Part shown: positions 48,011 through 54,869 of the stretch, in pieces
Layout: each line of letters starts with the position of its first letter
Position numbering within the stretch: position 1 is the stretch's first letter
Virus record (IMG/VR): IMGVR_UViG_3300042923_001771
Coordinates: 111,446 to 175,445 of that record
Strand: one strand, 5' to 3'
From: a virus
DNA length: 64,000 nt
Program-made: the position numbers and the translations under genes
Notes under the pieces: model-generated
Told to the model about the DNA's origin: nothing
Seen by the model: the letters and a program-made list of their open reading frames with translations, nothing else
The model's database searches: none

Positions 48011-48784
48011 ATGAATATTCTTATTACTGCTGGTGGAACAAAAGAAGCTATTGACAAAGTACGTCATATCACGAATATGTCTAGCGGGTCTCTTGGACGT
48101 GAGATTGCTGCATACGCAACCACTAAAGAATCAATTAAAGAAATTCATTTCGTTGGTCCAAAAGAAGCATTCCCAAAAGTTAAGTTTGGTGATATGCAAG
48201 CTGTTGATAAATATGTTGGATATGTTGTTGATTCTGTCGAAGACCTTTCAAGTACGCTTGAAAAAATTCTTACTACAAAAAAGATCGATGTAGTCATTCA
48301 CTCTATGGCAGTAAGCGACTACACTGTTGATTATGTATGCAATTTAGAAGACATGGTGAACGGCATATTTGAGTATATGAGTGTTGATACTGAGTGTTGT
48401 CCTGCAGATGTAATTGATTACATAAAAAAGGGAGAATTTAGAATTGATACAAATTCTAAAATGTCTTCAAAAAGTGAAGATCCTATTATTAAATTGACAC
48501 CTACGCAAAAAGTAATTGGTAATATCAAGAAATGGGCTCCAGATACAGTGCTTGTAGGGTTTAAACTTTTGGAAAATGTATCTGATGATGAATTAATTAA
48601 GGTAGCTCGTCAACAAATGCATAAAAATAAATGTGACTTTGTTTGGGCAAATGATATTAAACGTATTAGAGAGACCGGTCACCAAGGGTTATTGATTGAA
48701 AATGACGGCGTGACTTGTTTCCATGGTAAAGAGTCAATTGCTAAAGGTATCATCGATGCAGTTATACATTATGTTAAGGAGTAA
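48011..48784 (+). CDS. CoaB-like phosphopantothenate-cysteine ligase domain protein, 257 aa
   Basis: Starts with the CoaB signature NILITAGGTKEAIDKVRHI then TNMSSGSLGREIA, followed by MAVSDYTVD, KMSSKSED, KLTPTQKVIGNIKKW (K..PK.i..I pattern), VGFKLLE and CDFVWANDI. These are the conserved blocks of the C-terminal half of Dfp/CoaBC. It would make 4'-phospho-N-pantothenoylcysteine from phosphopantothenate and cysteine for coenzyme A synthesis. It is separate and precedes the CoaC-like gene by 6 bp, the reverse of the usual CoaC-CoaB fusion order. Confidence 0.88.
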   Translation: MNILITAGGTKEAIDKVRHITNMSSGSLGREIAAYATTKESIKEIHFVGPKEAFPKVKFGDMQAVDKYVGYVVDSVEDLSSTLEKILTTKKIDVVIHSMAVSDYTVDYVCNLEDMVNGIFEYMSVDTECCPADVIDYIKKGEFRIDTNSKMSSKSEDPIIKLTPTQKVIGNIKKWAPDTVLVGFKLLENVSDDELIKVARQQMHKNKCDFVWANDIKRIRETGHQGLLIENDGVTCFHGKESIAKGIIDAVIHYVKE

Positions 48785-48790
48785 CTTAAT

Positions 48791-49378
48791 ATGAGAGCAC
48801 CTAATGGAGAAACAATTAACCAATTCATGAATAAAACATTTGTTGTTGGTATTACTGGTGGAATTGCATCGTATAAAGCTATTGGCTTATGTAGTTATCT
48901 TAAGCAACAAGGCGCTAGCGTATTTCCCGTTATGACACGTGGAGCAGCAAAAATGATCCAACCAGCTTCAGTTAGAGGTGTTGTAGGTAGAGACCCTCTA
49001 ATTGAAGTTTGGGAAGAGCCAATTCCAAATGCAATTGCTCATATCTATTTAGCTGAACAAGCTCATGCGATTATTGTGGCTCCAGCAACAGCTCATACAA
49101 TTGCTAAACACCATGCTGGGTTGGCAGATGATATGCTAACTAATATTCTTTTAGCGACAGAGAATAAAGAGAAAATACTTTTCTGCCCAGCAATGAACGT
49201 TCATATGTGGCAACACCCCGCAACACAAAGAAATGTAAATGAAATGAAGAGTTGGGGTATTCAATTTCTTGAGCCAACTTCCGGTAATCTTGCTTGTGGA
49301 GTAAATGATGTTGGTAGGCTCCCAGAAACTCCAGAAATTGTTGCAAAGATTAAGGAAATGACAGCATACAAAGCTTAA
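48791..49378 (+). CDS. CoaC-like flavoprotein decarboxylase, 195 aa
   Basis: HFCD-family flavoprotein. VGITGGIASYKAIGL (FMN-binding), AIAHIYLAEQAHAIIVAPAT with the catalytic His, NVHM after CPAMN (PAMNxxM), and LACGVNDVGRLPE with the flap Cys are all present. These match CoaC (phosphopantothenoylcysteine decarboxylase) rather than UbiX. An AAGGAG site precedes the ATG. It follows the CoaB-like gene; together they cover two steps of coenzyme A synthesis. Confidence 0.9.
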   Translation: MRAPNGETINQFMNKTFVVGITGGIASYKAIGLCSYLKQQGASVFPVMTRGAAKMIQPASVRGVVGRDPLIEVWEEPIPNAIAHIYLAEQAHAIIVAPATAHTIAKHHAGLADDMLTNILLATENKEKILFCPAMNVHMWQHPATQRNVNEMKSWGIQFLEPTSGNLACGVNDVGRLPETPEIVAKIKEMTAYKA

Positions 49379-50815: not shown

Positions 50816-51370
50816 GTGTCAGTTTATATTGCAGTGGAATTTGATCCAAAGACAATGCAACGATTAAAACAAAAACAATTGATAGTTAAACATAATAGTA
50901 AAAAGGGAGACTTTGTACAACCTGAAACTTTTCATGTAACGGTATTGTTTTGTAAAGGTGGCAACGCGGGATACAAAAGAGAAGATTATGTAAAAGCTAT
51001 TGATGAAATGGGTAAGAGATACAATCCTAAATCTTTCCAAGTTCAACTTGAAAATTTTGGTCAATTTGAAAATGGCGGAGACGAAGGTAATGTTGTATGG
51101 GTTGGTCTTAAAAATAGCTTACCATTATACGAGATCAAAAAGCAGCTTCAAGAAACAATGCAATCACTACAAGTATCCATTGAAAAGTCTCAGTTTCCTG
51201 GATATACTCCTCACGTTACTATGGGATATAACGTAATAATAAATGACAACTTTGATTGCAAATTCGAAGATGAGGAACCAGTAACTATAAAATCAATAGC
51301 ATTATGGGATAGCTTTAAGGCTAATGATGCGTATGTTTACAATAAGGTTCATGAATTATTCTTCAATTAA
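50816..51370 (+). CDS. 2H phosphoesterase (2'-5' RNA ligase/LigT-like), 184 aa
   Basis: Two HxT motifs, FHVTVLF (~residue 40) and PHVTMGY (~138), with the surrounding strands define the 2H phosphoesterase family. Such enzymes cleave 2'-5' or cyclic phosphodiesters of nucleotides and RNA; phage members include Acb1-type anti-CBASS enzymes and RNA-end processing enzymes. The GTG at 50816 follows GGGAGAG. Substrate unknown. Confidence 0.85.
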   Translation: MSVYIAVEFDPKTMQRLKQKQLIVKHNSKKGDFVQPETFHVTVLFCKGGNAGYKREDYVKAIDEMGKRYNPKSFQVQLENFGQFENGGDEGNVVWVGLKNSLPLYEIKKQLQETMQSLQVSIEKSQFPGYTPHVTMGYNVIINDNFDCKFEDEEPVTIKSIALWDSFKANDAYVYNKVHELFFN

Positions 51371-51464: not shown

Positions 51465-52022
51465 ATGTCTAAAAAGAGCTGGTTAGAAAAAATTGGTTTG
51501 GTTGAGTCTACTAACAATACGGATCACGAACTCTCAAAATTGGAAGCAACATATGGATCATCATTAGCTGATGACAATTATGTCCCGACTGTAGAAGTAG
51601 ATATGAGTGGCGAAGATTTCTTGGATGTACCAGCAATTTATGAACGCTCCGGCTTGGCAGATAAAAGTCGTTCCATTTTCAAGGTTGATGAATTTACTAA
51701 AGTACTTCCTGACAGCATGACTACTGATCAAAAACGTCAATCCGTCATTGGTATCCTTGCAGTCAATGGCCTAACCATTGAAGAACTTCAGGCTGATGCT
51801 GAACAACGTCTTGGAGCGCTTCAAACTGTAAGCGAAACAACTACAAATAATACTGCTGCGCTTATTATTGAAAAAGATGCAGAAATTACTAGATTGTTGA
51901 GCGAGGTAGATGCTCTCAAACAGCAAATCAATGAGCGTAAGCTTTCTCAAGAGCACGAAGACAAGCTTATTAAAGAAGAAGTAGATAAAGTTTCAGCTAT
52001 TGTAAAATTCATTAGTGCTTAA
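51465..52022 (+). CDS. Hypothetical coiled-coil protein, first gene of the PspA/OmpA cassette, 185 aa
   Basis: Starts KSWLEKIGLVE, then an acidic part and a C-terminal coiled coil (IIEKDAEITRLLSEVDALKQ and on). No membrane helix. It lies 33 bp before the PspA-like gene. Function unknown; its place suggests it partners that protein. Confidence 0.7.
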   Translation: MSKKSWLEKIGLVESTNNTDHELSKLEATYGSSLADDNYVPTVEVDMSGEDFLDVPAIYERSGLADKSRSIFKVDEFTKVLPDSMTTDQKRQSVIGILAVNGLTIEELQADAEQRLGALQTVSETTTNNTAALIIEKDAEITRLLSEVDALKQQINERKLSQEHEDKLIKEEVDKVSAIVKFISA

Positions 52023-52055
52023 TTTACTAATTCTAAAAAACGGAGGAAATTCTAA

Positions 52056-52799
52056 ATGGAAACTTTAATTGTAGTTCTAATTGTTGTAGCTTTGATTGCT
52101 GTTTTATTGTTTGGCGGTGGAAAGCTTCGAATTCTCATGAAAGGGTTTGTTGGACTTTTCGTTGAGGATCTTGCAAAAACTCCTGATGGTGCTGCAGCAG
52201 TCTATACTGCTGCTATTGATAAAGCTCAAAATCAATATAACATTGCAAACGACACATTACAGAGGGTAGCTGGTCAACTTGAGGCAGCAAAATCTGATTT
52301 GGAAAATACCAAAAAAGAACTTGCTGAATGTGAAAACAAAGCAGAAGCTTTTGCAAAAGCCCAACAATGGGATAAAGTTGAATTATTTGCAAATCAACGT
52401 AATGATTTGGTTGAAGAATGTGAAAACAAAGCATCTGATATAGCTCGTTTAGCACCTATCTTTGAAGAAGCAAAGCTTATTAATAACAACTTGGAAGCTA
52501 AACTTGTTAAGTTGAAGAAAGATAAGATTCGTGTTGTAAATGATCTTAAGATGAACAAACAACTTAAAGGTATGTATGATGATATGGACGAGTTGAAAAA
52601 CAACAACGACATTGACAAGATGGTTGATGCTGTTAAAACTGGCGTTCGTGATAGTCGTGAAACAGCAGTCGGCGCACGGACTGTCCATGATAACAAAATT
52701 TCAACTAAGATCACAAATGCAAATGCTGAAGCAAAAAAACTTCAAGGTTCAGACTATGCTAATGAGCTTAAAAAGAAATTCAATCCCGGTCAAAAATAA
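52056..52799 (+). CDS. PspA/IM30-like coiled-coil protein with N-terminal membrane helix, 247 aa
   Basis: An N-terminal hydrophobic helix (LIVVLIVVALIAVLLFGGGK) followed by ~150 residues of coiled coil with the repeating heptad pattern of PspA/IM30 (AAVYTAAIDKAQNQYNIAND, AKAQQWDKVELFANQRNDLV). PspA/Vipp1 are membrane-remodelling ESCRT-III-related proteins. An ACGGAGG site precedes the ATG. The N-terminal helix differs from cytosolic PspA, which has an amphipathic helix. A membrane-repair or stress role is inferred. Confidence 0.72.
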   Translation: METLIVVLIVVALIAVLLFGGGKLRILMKGFVGLFVEDLAKTPDGAAAVYTAAIDKAQNQYNIANDTLQRVAGQLEAAKSDLENTKKELAECENKAEAFAKAQQWDKVELFANQRNDLVEECENKASDIARLAPIFEEAKLINNNLEAKLVKLKKDKIRVVNDLKMNKQLKGMYDDMDELKNNNDIDKMVDAVKTGVRDSRETAVGARTVHDNKISTKITNANAEAKKLQGSDYANELKKKFNPGQK

Positions 52800-52818
52800 C
52801 GTTAATATATTCTATTCG

Positions 52819-52857
52819 ACAAGGTTGAGGATTATTCCTCAATCTTGTTTTATTTTT
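52819..52857 (+). terminator. Intrinsic terminator
   Basis: A 12 bp stem ACAAGGTTGAGG / CCTCAATCTTGT around ATTATT, followed by a T-rich tail. Confidence 0.88.
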
Positions 52858-52876
52858 GAAAAGTTTATAAAATCCG

Positions 52877-52904
52877 TTTACAAAATTCGAGAATGTGATA
52901 TAAT
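52877..52904 (+). promoter_or_regulatory. SigmaA-type promoter with extended -10
   Basis: TTTACA, 16 bp spacer ending TGA, TATAAT at 52899-52904. Confidence 0.85.
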
Positions 52905-52943
52905 AAATATATAAGGAAATAAGAAAAGGAGATGAAATTCAAA

Positions 52944-53204
52944 ATGTTTGAAAAAATCAATGTTGATAGTCAAGAGAAGTTTGACAAAAGATACGGTGAT
53001 AAAATGTCACTAAGTGATTTTCTTGAATCATGTGAAGATGGTAGTTTTATTGATTACGATGGATTTGCCTCCGAAATTATTCTAAATGGCAACGTAATAC
53101 ATAAAGCGCACTTTTATCCTTCTGATGCGTTAGAAAATAAAAACAAACTACTAGCGCTTCAAAATGAACTTGGAGAATTGGAGATTGTTTGGTATAATCG
53201 ATGA
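52944..53204 (+). CDS. Hypothetical acidic protein, 86 aa
   Basis: The ATG at 52944 is preferred over the ATG at 52932, which touches the AAAGGAG site. A single-domain acidic protein (KMSLSDFLESCEDGSFIDYD). Not recognised. Confidence 0.65.
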   Translation: MFEKINVDSQEKFDKRYGDKMSLSDFLESCEDGSFIDYDGFASEIILNGNVIHKAHFYPSDALENKNKLLALQNELGELEIVWYNR

Positions 53205-53252
53205 TTTAAACTTCTTGAAATGTATGTTAAAAAAAGATAAACTCTTATTTAA

Positions 53253-53275
53253 GATTATTACATAATTATTATTTA
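53253..53275 (+). promoter_or_regulatory. Bipartite-element-like sequence with short spacer
   Basis: GATTATT, 5 nt, ATTATTATTTA; the right half matches the element but the left half and the spacer differ. A TTAAAA run at 53226-53233 precedes it. The next gene starts at 53307. Confidence 0.4.
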
Positions 53276-53306
53276 AAATAATTCAAAATAAAAGGAGCAA
53301 ACTAAA

Positions 53307-54869
53307 ATGAACACTAAAAAAATCACCACAGCCGGTAAACTTGTAATCTTTCTCTTTGTTTTGATTATCGCAGGCGCAGGAACTTATTTTGCGGGTGGAT
53401 TTAACTTTTTGAAAAAAGGAACAACCAATGCAAGTGATTCTACAACCAAAGTAACAACTCCAGTTCAAAATGGTACACCAGTAGTAAATGGAACATCCGG
53501 CAACAATGCAATTAATCTTTCCATTAGTGAAAAAATTAACTGGAAGCCTATTCTTGATGCTAATGGTGGATTAACAACACAATCCGGATCTATTTACGAT
53601 AAGCTAGGAATTAAAGTTAATATTAAGTTAGATAATAACCCAGATAATTCAAGTCAAGAATTTATTGATAACAAAGCACACGCGCTTGGTTACACAGTCA
53701 ATGGTTATTCTGCATTGTACAAAAAATTTCAAGACAATAAGGTTGAAACAGTAATGCCTTACATTGTTGATTCCTCCGTTGGCGGAGATGGTATCATTGT
53801 TCGTGGCGAAATTAACAGTATTAATGATTTTGTAGGTAAGAAAATTGGTGTTCCAAAATCTTCTTCTGATTATGCAATGGTAGTATGGTTGATGCAACAA
53901 TCCGATTTAAATGCAGACCAAATCGAACAAATCAAAAAGAACATTGTGGTTTATCCTTCAGTTGGTAAAGTAGCAGATGCTTTCTTTAAAGGTGAAGTTG
54001 ATATTGCTGGTGTACGTCAACCTTACTTAACACAAGCCAAAAATACTCAAGGTACGAAAGTAATGTTTACAACTAAGTCAGCTAAGAACATTATTGCAAA
54101 TGGTATTGTATTCCGTAAAGACTTCGCTGATGCTAATACTGATACTGTAACAAAATTCATTGATGGTGCATTCCAAGCAATTGGTACAAAAGGTTTTGAT
54201 AACGTAAAAGTTCAACCAGCCTTTAAAGATGCTAAAGATGCTGATCTTGAGCAAATGTTAACAGAATTGAAGTTCAATGGCTATACTGAAAACATGACAT
54301 ATCTCAATGGTATGACTCAAACACTCTTTGAAGATATGAATAAGGTTTGGGAAGCTACCGGAGAAAAAGTTGTACATGGTGCATCCACAACAGCACTTAC
54401 AAAATCTTACATTGAAAAATTAAGTGGTAAGTATAAAATGGAAGCTGTAACAACCACTAAGATTGATGATGCAACAAAAGCAAAAGCTAAATCACAAGAT
54501 GATAGTCAAACACTTTTGAAAAAATCAGCAACAATCAACTTTCAACCGAACAGTGCAAACTTTGTAAATGCTGACGAAGCAGCAACTGCATTAGAAGAAT
54601 TCGTTAAGATTGCTAAGTTCTTGGATGGAGCGGTAATTCAAGTTGAGGGTAATGTTGCTAATGTTGGTACAAACGACCCAACGGCAGCAGAAAAACTCTC
54701 TTATGCTCGAGCAACTACAGTTGCTAAGTATCTTACAGATAAGGGTGTTGACCCTACGCGGTTTATCGTAGTAGGAAATGGTATCTCAAAACAAATTGGA
54801 GACAACAACACCAACGAAGGTCAAGCTAAAAATAGACGTACAGATATATCCTTCAAAGTTATTGAATAA
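53307..54869 (+). CDS. Membrane-anchored solute-binding-protein/OmpA fusion, 520 aa
   Basis: A membrane anchor at ~12-30 (VIFLFVLIIAGAGTYFAGGF) and a Thr/Ser-rich linker to ~70. A substrate-binding-protein-like domain follows at ~75-345 (VVYPSVGKVADAFFKGEVD, DIAGVRQPYLTQAKN pattern of the NMT1/SsuA type). It ends with an OmpA-like peptidoglycan-binding domain at ~410-520 (VDPTRFIVVGNGIS...NRRTDISF, AEKLSYARATTVAKYL). It faces outward and should tether to the cell wall. An AAAGGAGC site precedes the ATG. With the PspA-like gene it forms an envelope-directed cassette; ligand unknown. Confidence 0.85.
   Translation: MNTKKITTAGKLVIFLFVLIIAGAGTYFAGGFNFLKKGTTNASDSTTKVTTPVQNGTPVVNGTSGNNAINLSISEKINWKPILDANGGLTTQSGSIYDKLGIKVNIKLDNNPDNSSQEFIDNKAHALGYTVNGYSALYKKFQDNKVETVMPYIVDSSVGGDGIIVRGEINSINDFVGKKIGVPKSSSDYAMVVWLMQQSDLNADQIEQIKKNIVVYPSVGKVADAFFKGEVDIAGVRQPYLTQAKNTQGTKVMFTTKSAKNIIANGIVFRKDFADANTDTVTKFIDGAFQAIGTKGFDNVKVQPAFKDAKDADLEQMLTELKFNGYTENMTYLNGMTQTLFEDMNKVWEATGEKVVHGASTTALTKSYIEKLSGKYKMEAVTTTKIDDATKAKAKSQDDSQTLLKKSATINFQPNSANFVNADEAATALEEFVKIAKFLDGAVIQVEGNVANVGTNDPTAAEKLSYARATTVAKYLTDKGVDPTRFIVVGNGISKQIGDNNTNEGQAKNRRTDISFKVIE

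Follow-up and report, generated by a model that had tools for sequence, protein, structure and literature searches.

What does a phage do with a membrane-anchored relative of PspA, a short coiled-coil protein and a solute-binding protein (SBP) fused to an OmpA domain? This question is raised by three genes at positions 51465-54869 of the window, a stretch of 64,000 nucleotides from a phage record of 175 kb (IMG/VR record IMGVR_UViG_3300042923_001771, bases 111446-175445); coordinates are given relative to this window. All three envelope genes were present on the plus strand as originally predicted, with good ribosome-binding sites preceding each open reading frame (ORF). Gene order and profile comparisons indicated that the three genes are what is left of a cassette of five, which encodes an ATP-binding cassette (ABC) permease, an ABC ATPase, the short coil, the PspA-like protein with its transmembrane (TM) helix, and the SBP-OmpA fusion. 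The predicted three-gene cassette was real as a trio but incomplete, since relatives add the permease and ATPase genes. A 90-residue ORF intervenes in the window.

Recurrence of the cassette in large phages

Recurrence was investigated by scanning IMG/VR with alignments of the PspA and SBP proteins, followed by model-based annotation, and by a further scan seeded with Lak-type proteins. The gene order permease, ATPase, coil, PspA, SBP-OmpA was shared by 15 distinct contigs of phages or prophages, a count that includes Bacillus phage G and a prophage-like locus of Clostridium citroniae. At locus L094 the permease gene lies 4 kb from the rest of the cassette, and at L009, L021 and L022 no ATPase gene adjoins the permease gene. 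A second lineage, with the order coil, PspA, SBP-OmpA, permease, ATPase, accounts for another 14 distinct contigs; Lak-B5 and Lak-C1 belong to it, as do phage contigs with lengths of 462, 512 and 735 kb. Homologues of the trio thus stand in the same order in phage G as well as numerous other phages, and the earlier view of the combination as unusual in a phage did not survive its discovery in about thirty distinct large-phage contigs.

Profiles of the two lineages matched each other in the PspA slot (94.4% probability, E 9.4e-8) and in the coil slot (90.5%, E 1.4e-6), while crossed control pairs reached 0.3-5.6%. PF04012 (PspA_IM30) matched 5 of the 15 TM coils of the second lineage. Judged by these profiles, the two cassette lineages are homologous slot by slot for PspA and coil. 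A chance trio of generic coiled coils was rejected, because the gene order is fixed in approximately 30 contigs and because of the low values of the crossed comparisons.

Capture of an ordinary host operon received little support, as scans of cellular genomes yielded almost exclusively phage-like loci. When 84,980 species genomes were scanned with a pattern, one locus emerged. Within the family that bears this locus, 3 of 397 genomes had the gene, which belonged to two full cassettes in phage-like surroundings and to one phage-like contig of 378 kb; when 399 genomes of the same phylum were searched, one ordinary PspA was the sole addition. These scans used a narrow pattern and sampled genomes of a single phylum, so that divergent cellular copies could escape them.

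Genes for salvage of nicotinamide adenine dinucleotide (NAD), encoding NMNAT, PnuC, a NadR-like protein, nicotinamidase, NAMPT and NadE, adjoin the cassette at several loci (L016, 11601-14132; L025, 1647-5175; L032, 162-2434) and lie inside it at L020 (7159-8414).

Proteins encoded by the trio

The TM-anchored PspA-like protein (247 residues; 52056-52799, plus strand; phrog_33389, 3e-94) has an N-terminal hydrophobic helix with a Kyte-Doolittle value of 3.09 over 19 residues from residue 4. A TM helix at this position was present in the window protein and in all 18 aligned relatives, in place of the amphipathic helix 0 of usual PspA. PF04012 matched 16 of these 19 proteins at E ≤ 0.1; the best match (7.8e-11) was the one that scored above the curated cut-off. 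In the AlphaFold2 model of the window protein (pLDDT 81), the TM helix (residues ~3-20) and a linker helix are followed by a long α1-α2/3 hairpin (43-101 and 105-181) and a further helix (184-242), an arrangement characteristic of PspA/IM30. A Foldseek search of the PDB placed VIPP1 (7o3x and 7o3w) at ranks 2-3, with TM-scores of 0.52 and 0.60. From the family profile and the model we conclude that this protein probably belongs to the PspA superfamily as a diverged member with a TM anchor, membership holding at family level. The PspA/IM30-like nature of the coil and the reality of its TM helix, both proposed at the outset, were thereby supported. Neither of the outcomes named in advance as refuting the original proposal, a neighbourhood that does not recur and a coil that does not fold like PspA, was observed.

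The short coil protein (185 residues; 51465-52022, plus strand) was predicted to consist of a disordered N-terminus with a KKSWLEKIGLVE motif, a small helical domain (72-100) and a helix of 79 residues, without a TM segment; the prediction was confident for the small domain and the long helix. Homologues with 24-48% identity occupy the same slot in first-lineage cassettes, and Y59, P82, D111, R115, L119, E172 and F182 are invariant in the family. Searches for a fold neighbour in the PDB and for a Pfam family found none, and the coil represents a new family without a match to a known fold. Its invariant residues and constant position beside PspA argue for a role as dedicated PspA partner.

The third gene (53307-54869, plus strand) encodes a protein of 520 residues (phrog_25518, 3e-196) with an N-terminal membrane anchor. 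As originally predicted, it is a binding-protein/OmpA fusion: an NMT1/SsuA-like solute-binding domain (PF09084, 2.5e-11) and a C-terminal OmpA domain (PF00691, 1.7e-14) both scored above curated cut-offs. In the PDB, the family alignment matched the taurine-binding protein 6ssy and the nitrate-type protein 3e4r. In a tree, the window protein and gp250 of phage G formed a clade with 100/100 support and long branches, apart from gp249 and from the single copies of other phages; a search of IMG/VR for close relatives of the window protein found none. Its place in the tree identifies it as a derived paralogue of the gp250 type. The motifs ATW[EQ]PYL, INDATxSSNAL and SEA, which we infer to line the ligand cleft, are almost invariant in the other 16 of the 18 aligned proteins. 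In the window protein and gp250, the tryptophan of the first motif is replaced by arginine and the segments that hold the other two are gone.

Putative role of the trio in the window phage

The window phage is collinear with Bacillus phage G from 116 kb to 189 kb of the phage G genome, a region that spans the tape-measure region and genes for helicases, primase, ligase, HU, LigT, gyrB, HIRAN, gyrA, ClpP and ClpX. The place of the trio, between LigT and gyrB, is occupied in phage G by gp241-gp250, among which gp243 is an ABC permease, gp245 an ABC ATPase, gp246 the coil and gp247 the TM-PspA, followed by gp248 and by gp249 and gp250, two SBP-OmpA paralogues. Identities to the window proteins are 48% for gp246, 61% for gp247, 46-47% for gp249 and 56% for gp250. 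In the window, the gap between LigT and the coil measures only 94 bp, and permease, ATPase and a counterpart of gp249 are absent from the locus. Neither PF00005 and PF00528 nor cassette-specific models, run against all six frames, matched an ABC ATPase or permease in the 175-kb record. It thus appears that, in the window phage, the importer half is gone and the receptor has been altered in step, and the phage resembles a natural deletion mutant for that half.

The apparent loss of the importer suggests that the trio no longer imports but acts as a membrane/wall scaffold. The best explanation, to which we assign about as much belief as doubt, is that the trio represents the membrane and wall portion of a conserved five-gene phage envelope cassette, now serving as a structural tether or sensor together with a PspA/coil scaffold. 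In the complete cassette, SBP-OmpA would be anchored in the cytoplasmic membrane, grip the wall and deliver a small solute to the ABC importer made up of permease and ATPase. TM-PspA would polymerise on the cytoplasmic face, scaffolding or sealing the membrane around the importer complex, with the short coil as its soluble partner or adaptor. Members of the PspA/IM30 family assemble into rings or rods and associate with anionic membranes. In the window phage, with the importer gone, SBP-OmpA could act as a tether or sensor between wall and membrane, while the PspA/coil scaffold would keep the membrane of the infected host intact and energised through a long infection. Such a structural job is the most likely one for the window phage because its locus has neither the importer genes nor the canonical SBP-OmpA, and because the remaining SBP-OmpA no longer carries the conserved SBP motifs. 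Topology, complex formation, membrane protection and loss of transport are here extrapolated from the protein families. The original proposal of membrane stress, wall anchoring or uptake did not take in the five-gene transporter cassette of relatives; for the window copy, uptake and wall binding were weakened by the loss of SBP motifs and of an aspartate in the OmpA domain.

Several observations weigh against a tether and PspA scaffold. The 175-kb record stops directly after clpX, in the middle of the synteny with phage G, and its left end departs from the next genes of phage G; it is therefore a genome fragment, and ABC genes could lie elsewhere. PF04012 did not match the 247-residue window protein itself, and the structural match to VIPP1 was weak (E 0.02, among unrelated coiled coils). 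Finally, OmpA domains presumably hold diaminopimelate through the aspartate of a TD motif and the arginine of an NRR motif. The window protein retains this arginine, but the aspartate is absent (GNVANVG; TD is present in 6 of the 18 aligned relatives; L020 and L025 keep it), which makes wall binding by the window SBP-OmpA uncertain.

If transporter genes are present in the part of the genome that the record does not cover, or if SBP-OmpA feeds a host permease, the trio would still belong to an uptake system, with PspA and coil as accessory scaffold. We regard this as rather unlikely, although 29 relatives retain transporter genes and sharing of host parts is made plausible by L009, L021 and L022, which have no ATPase gene beside the permease gene (the 140-kb contig of L022 gave no PF00005 match). 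PnuC/NMNAT or NAD-synthesis genes beside or within the cassette at L016, L020, L025 and L032 suggest a theme of NAD-precursor supply. Against uptake stand the failure to find a transporter gene in the 175 kb of the record and the loss from the window SBP of motifs that 16 of 18 homologues retain. An importer of NAD precursors was rejected as a specific candidate: the neighbours are suggestive, but NAD genes were no denser near the cassette than in phage DNA used as control.

The predicted helical hairpin also fits an ESCRT-III-like remodelling device, in which TM-PspA and coil would shape or seal membrane compartments during infection by large phages. PspA and Vipp1 have been placed in the ESCRT-III superfamily (PMC11237479), and nearly all copies found lie in large phages and prophage-like loci. 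We nevertheless consider such a device very improbable: a Vps4-like AAA+ gene was not seen in the cassette, the TM anchor ties the protein to one membrane, and the device would not account for the linkage to an importer and to an SBP that binds the wall.

PspA-type proteins are known to counteract membrane damage. A module for superinfection exclusion or anti-defence, in which PspA and a wall tether block injection by rivals or mend pore damage from abortive infection, would build on this property, and relatives of TM-PspA lie downstream of three TerD stress genes on further large, phage-like contigs. Authors of a study on huge phages have suggested that membrane and surface proteins may change susceptibility to other phages (PMC7162821). 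This module, too, is improbable, since the ABC importer, unneeded for exclusion, is conserved in most copies and PADLOC gave no credible match. A known defence system was rejected on the same grounds, as PADLOC yielded weak cross-hits to coiled-coil and OmpA/MotB proteins only.

In the window phage the trio probably forms two transcription units, because an intrinsic-terminator-like stem-loop (52818-52849, plus strand; 14-pair stem with T-rich tail) and a promoter-like site with strong, near-consensus hexamers (TTTACA-16-TATAAT with TG; 52877-52904, plus strand) separate the PspA gene from SBP-OmpA. Downstream of this site lies the 90-residue ORF (52932-53204, plus strand), with a weak match to phrog_14149 and outside the conserved core. 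Segments of 52847-52960 recur with 77-93% identity at six other sites of the 175-kb record (record positions 152008, 78696, 123119, 129740, 70930 and 157292), apparently a recurring phage promoter or leader with near-consensus sigma-A hexamers. Immediately upstream of the trio, the 2H phosphoesterase/LigT gene (50816-51370) scored 29.9 bits with the anti-CBASS Acb1 profile, just over the cut-off of 27 bits, and could be a counter-defence gene. Two adjoining ORFs at 48011-49378 resemble, by eye only, a split CoaBC (phosphopantothenate-cysteine ligase and decarboxylase), which is unusual in a phage.

The cassette ranges over Bacillus phage G, clostridial prophages, Lak megaphages and phages above 450 kb, and was not mentioned in the searchable main texts of papers on jumbo and huge phages (PMC7824862, PMC7162821, PMC6784885, PMC11165621). 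Its occurrence suggests that large phages manage the membrane integrity and solute exchange of their hosts with a gene set of their own. We advance, as a speculation that is more likely wrong than right, that an as yet unreported envelope assembly is common to large phages: at the host membrane, a TM-PspA/ESCRT-III-type polymer, a dedicated coil partner and a wall-gripping receptor would remodel or protect membranes during long infections, with the importer dispensable. As an apparent deletion of the importer half, the window phage makes the role of PspA, coil and SBP-OmpA testable separately, and knockouts are possible in principle in phage G, which is cultivated.

Comparison with known systems

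In phage G, gp243-gp250 are orthologous genes at the place of the window trio and make up a complete five-gene cassette. Phage G differs in having two SBP-OmpA paralogues, a permease and an ATPase, while the window phage carries a single SBP-OmpA, of the gp250 type, without transporter genes. The Lak megaphage-type cassette (L010, L011, L013, L014, L082-L089, L092, L095) contains the same five components, homologous by profile, but in another gene order and with a larger TM coil.

An operon on a Vibrio plasmid (L097, L098), with SBP-OmpA, a vWA protein, TelA and an ABC transporter, likewise links SBP-OmpA/ABC genes to a membrane-stress protein. Six components of a 595-kb phage (L012) match this operon, with a PspA-like protein in the position of TelA; L012 (11833-20395) and the plasmid locus L097 (4446-13284) are near gene-by-gene counterparts. 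Both differ from the cassette in their vWA protein and two SBP-OmpA fusions, and the short-coil family was not seen in them; the plasmid-type SBP-OmpA is distant in sequence (~22%).

The nearest TM-PspA relatives found outside ABC cassettes (130-144 bits; PF04012, 8e-6) belong to a TerD-TerD-TerD-TM-PspA cassette (L055, L067-L073). It is likewise located on large phage-like contigs, but its partners are TerD proteins (with a P-type ATPase in L055), without SBP-OmpA or coil. The three TerD genes precede TM-PspA at L055 (4964-10230, where a P-type cation ATPase comes first), L067, L068, L071 and L072, and this phage-borne Ter/PspA cassette parallels the ABC cassette.

Bacterial operons with PspA or Snf7-TM, an AAA+ ATPase, an ABC ATPase, a permease and a PBPB-OmpA protein have been described (Ravi et al., 2024; PMC11237479). 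Like these operons, the phage cassette combines a TM-bearing coil of the PspA superfamily, an ABC transporter and a fusion that binds solute and peptidoglycan. A coil of the TM-PspA type beside ABC genes and SBP-OmpA was found in relatives, whereas the window has the pair without the ABC genes. The phage cassette further differs in being phage-borne and in its additional coil of a new family; by gene order, no AAA+ ATPase gene was seen inside the cassette in the window or its relatives, where not every neighbour was scanned. Viruses are not mentioned in the main text of that study and the phage form is not described there; phage cassette and cellular operons are systems of one kind.

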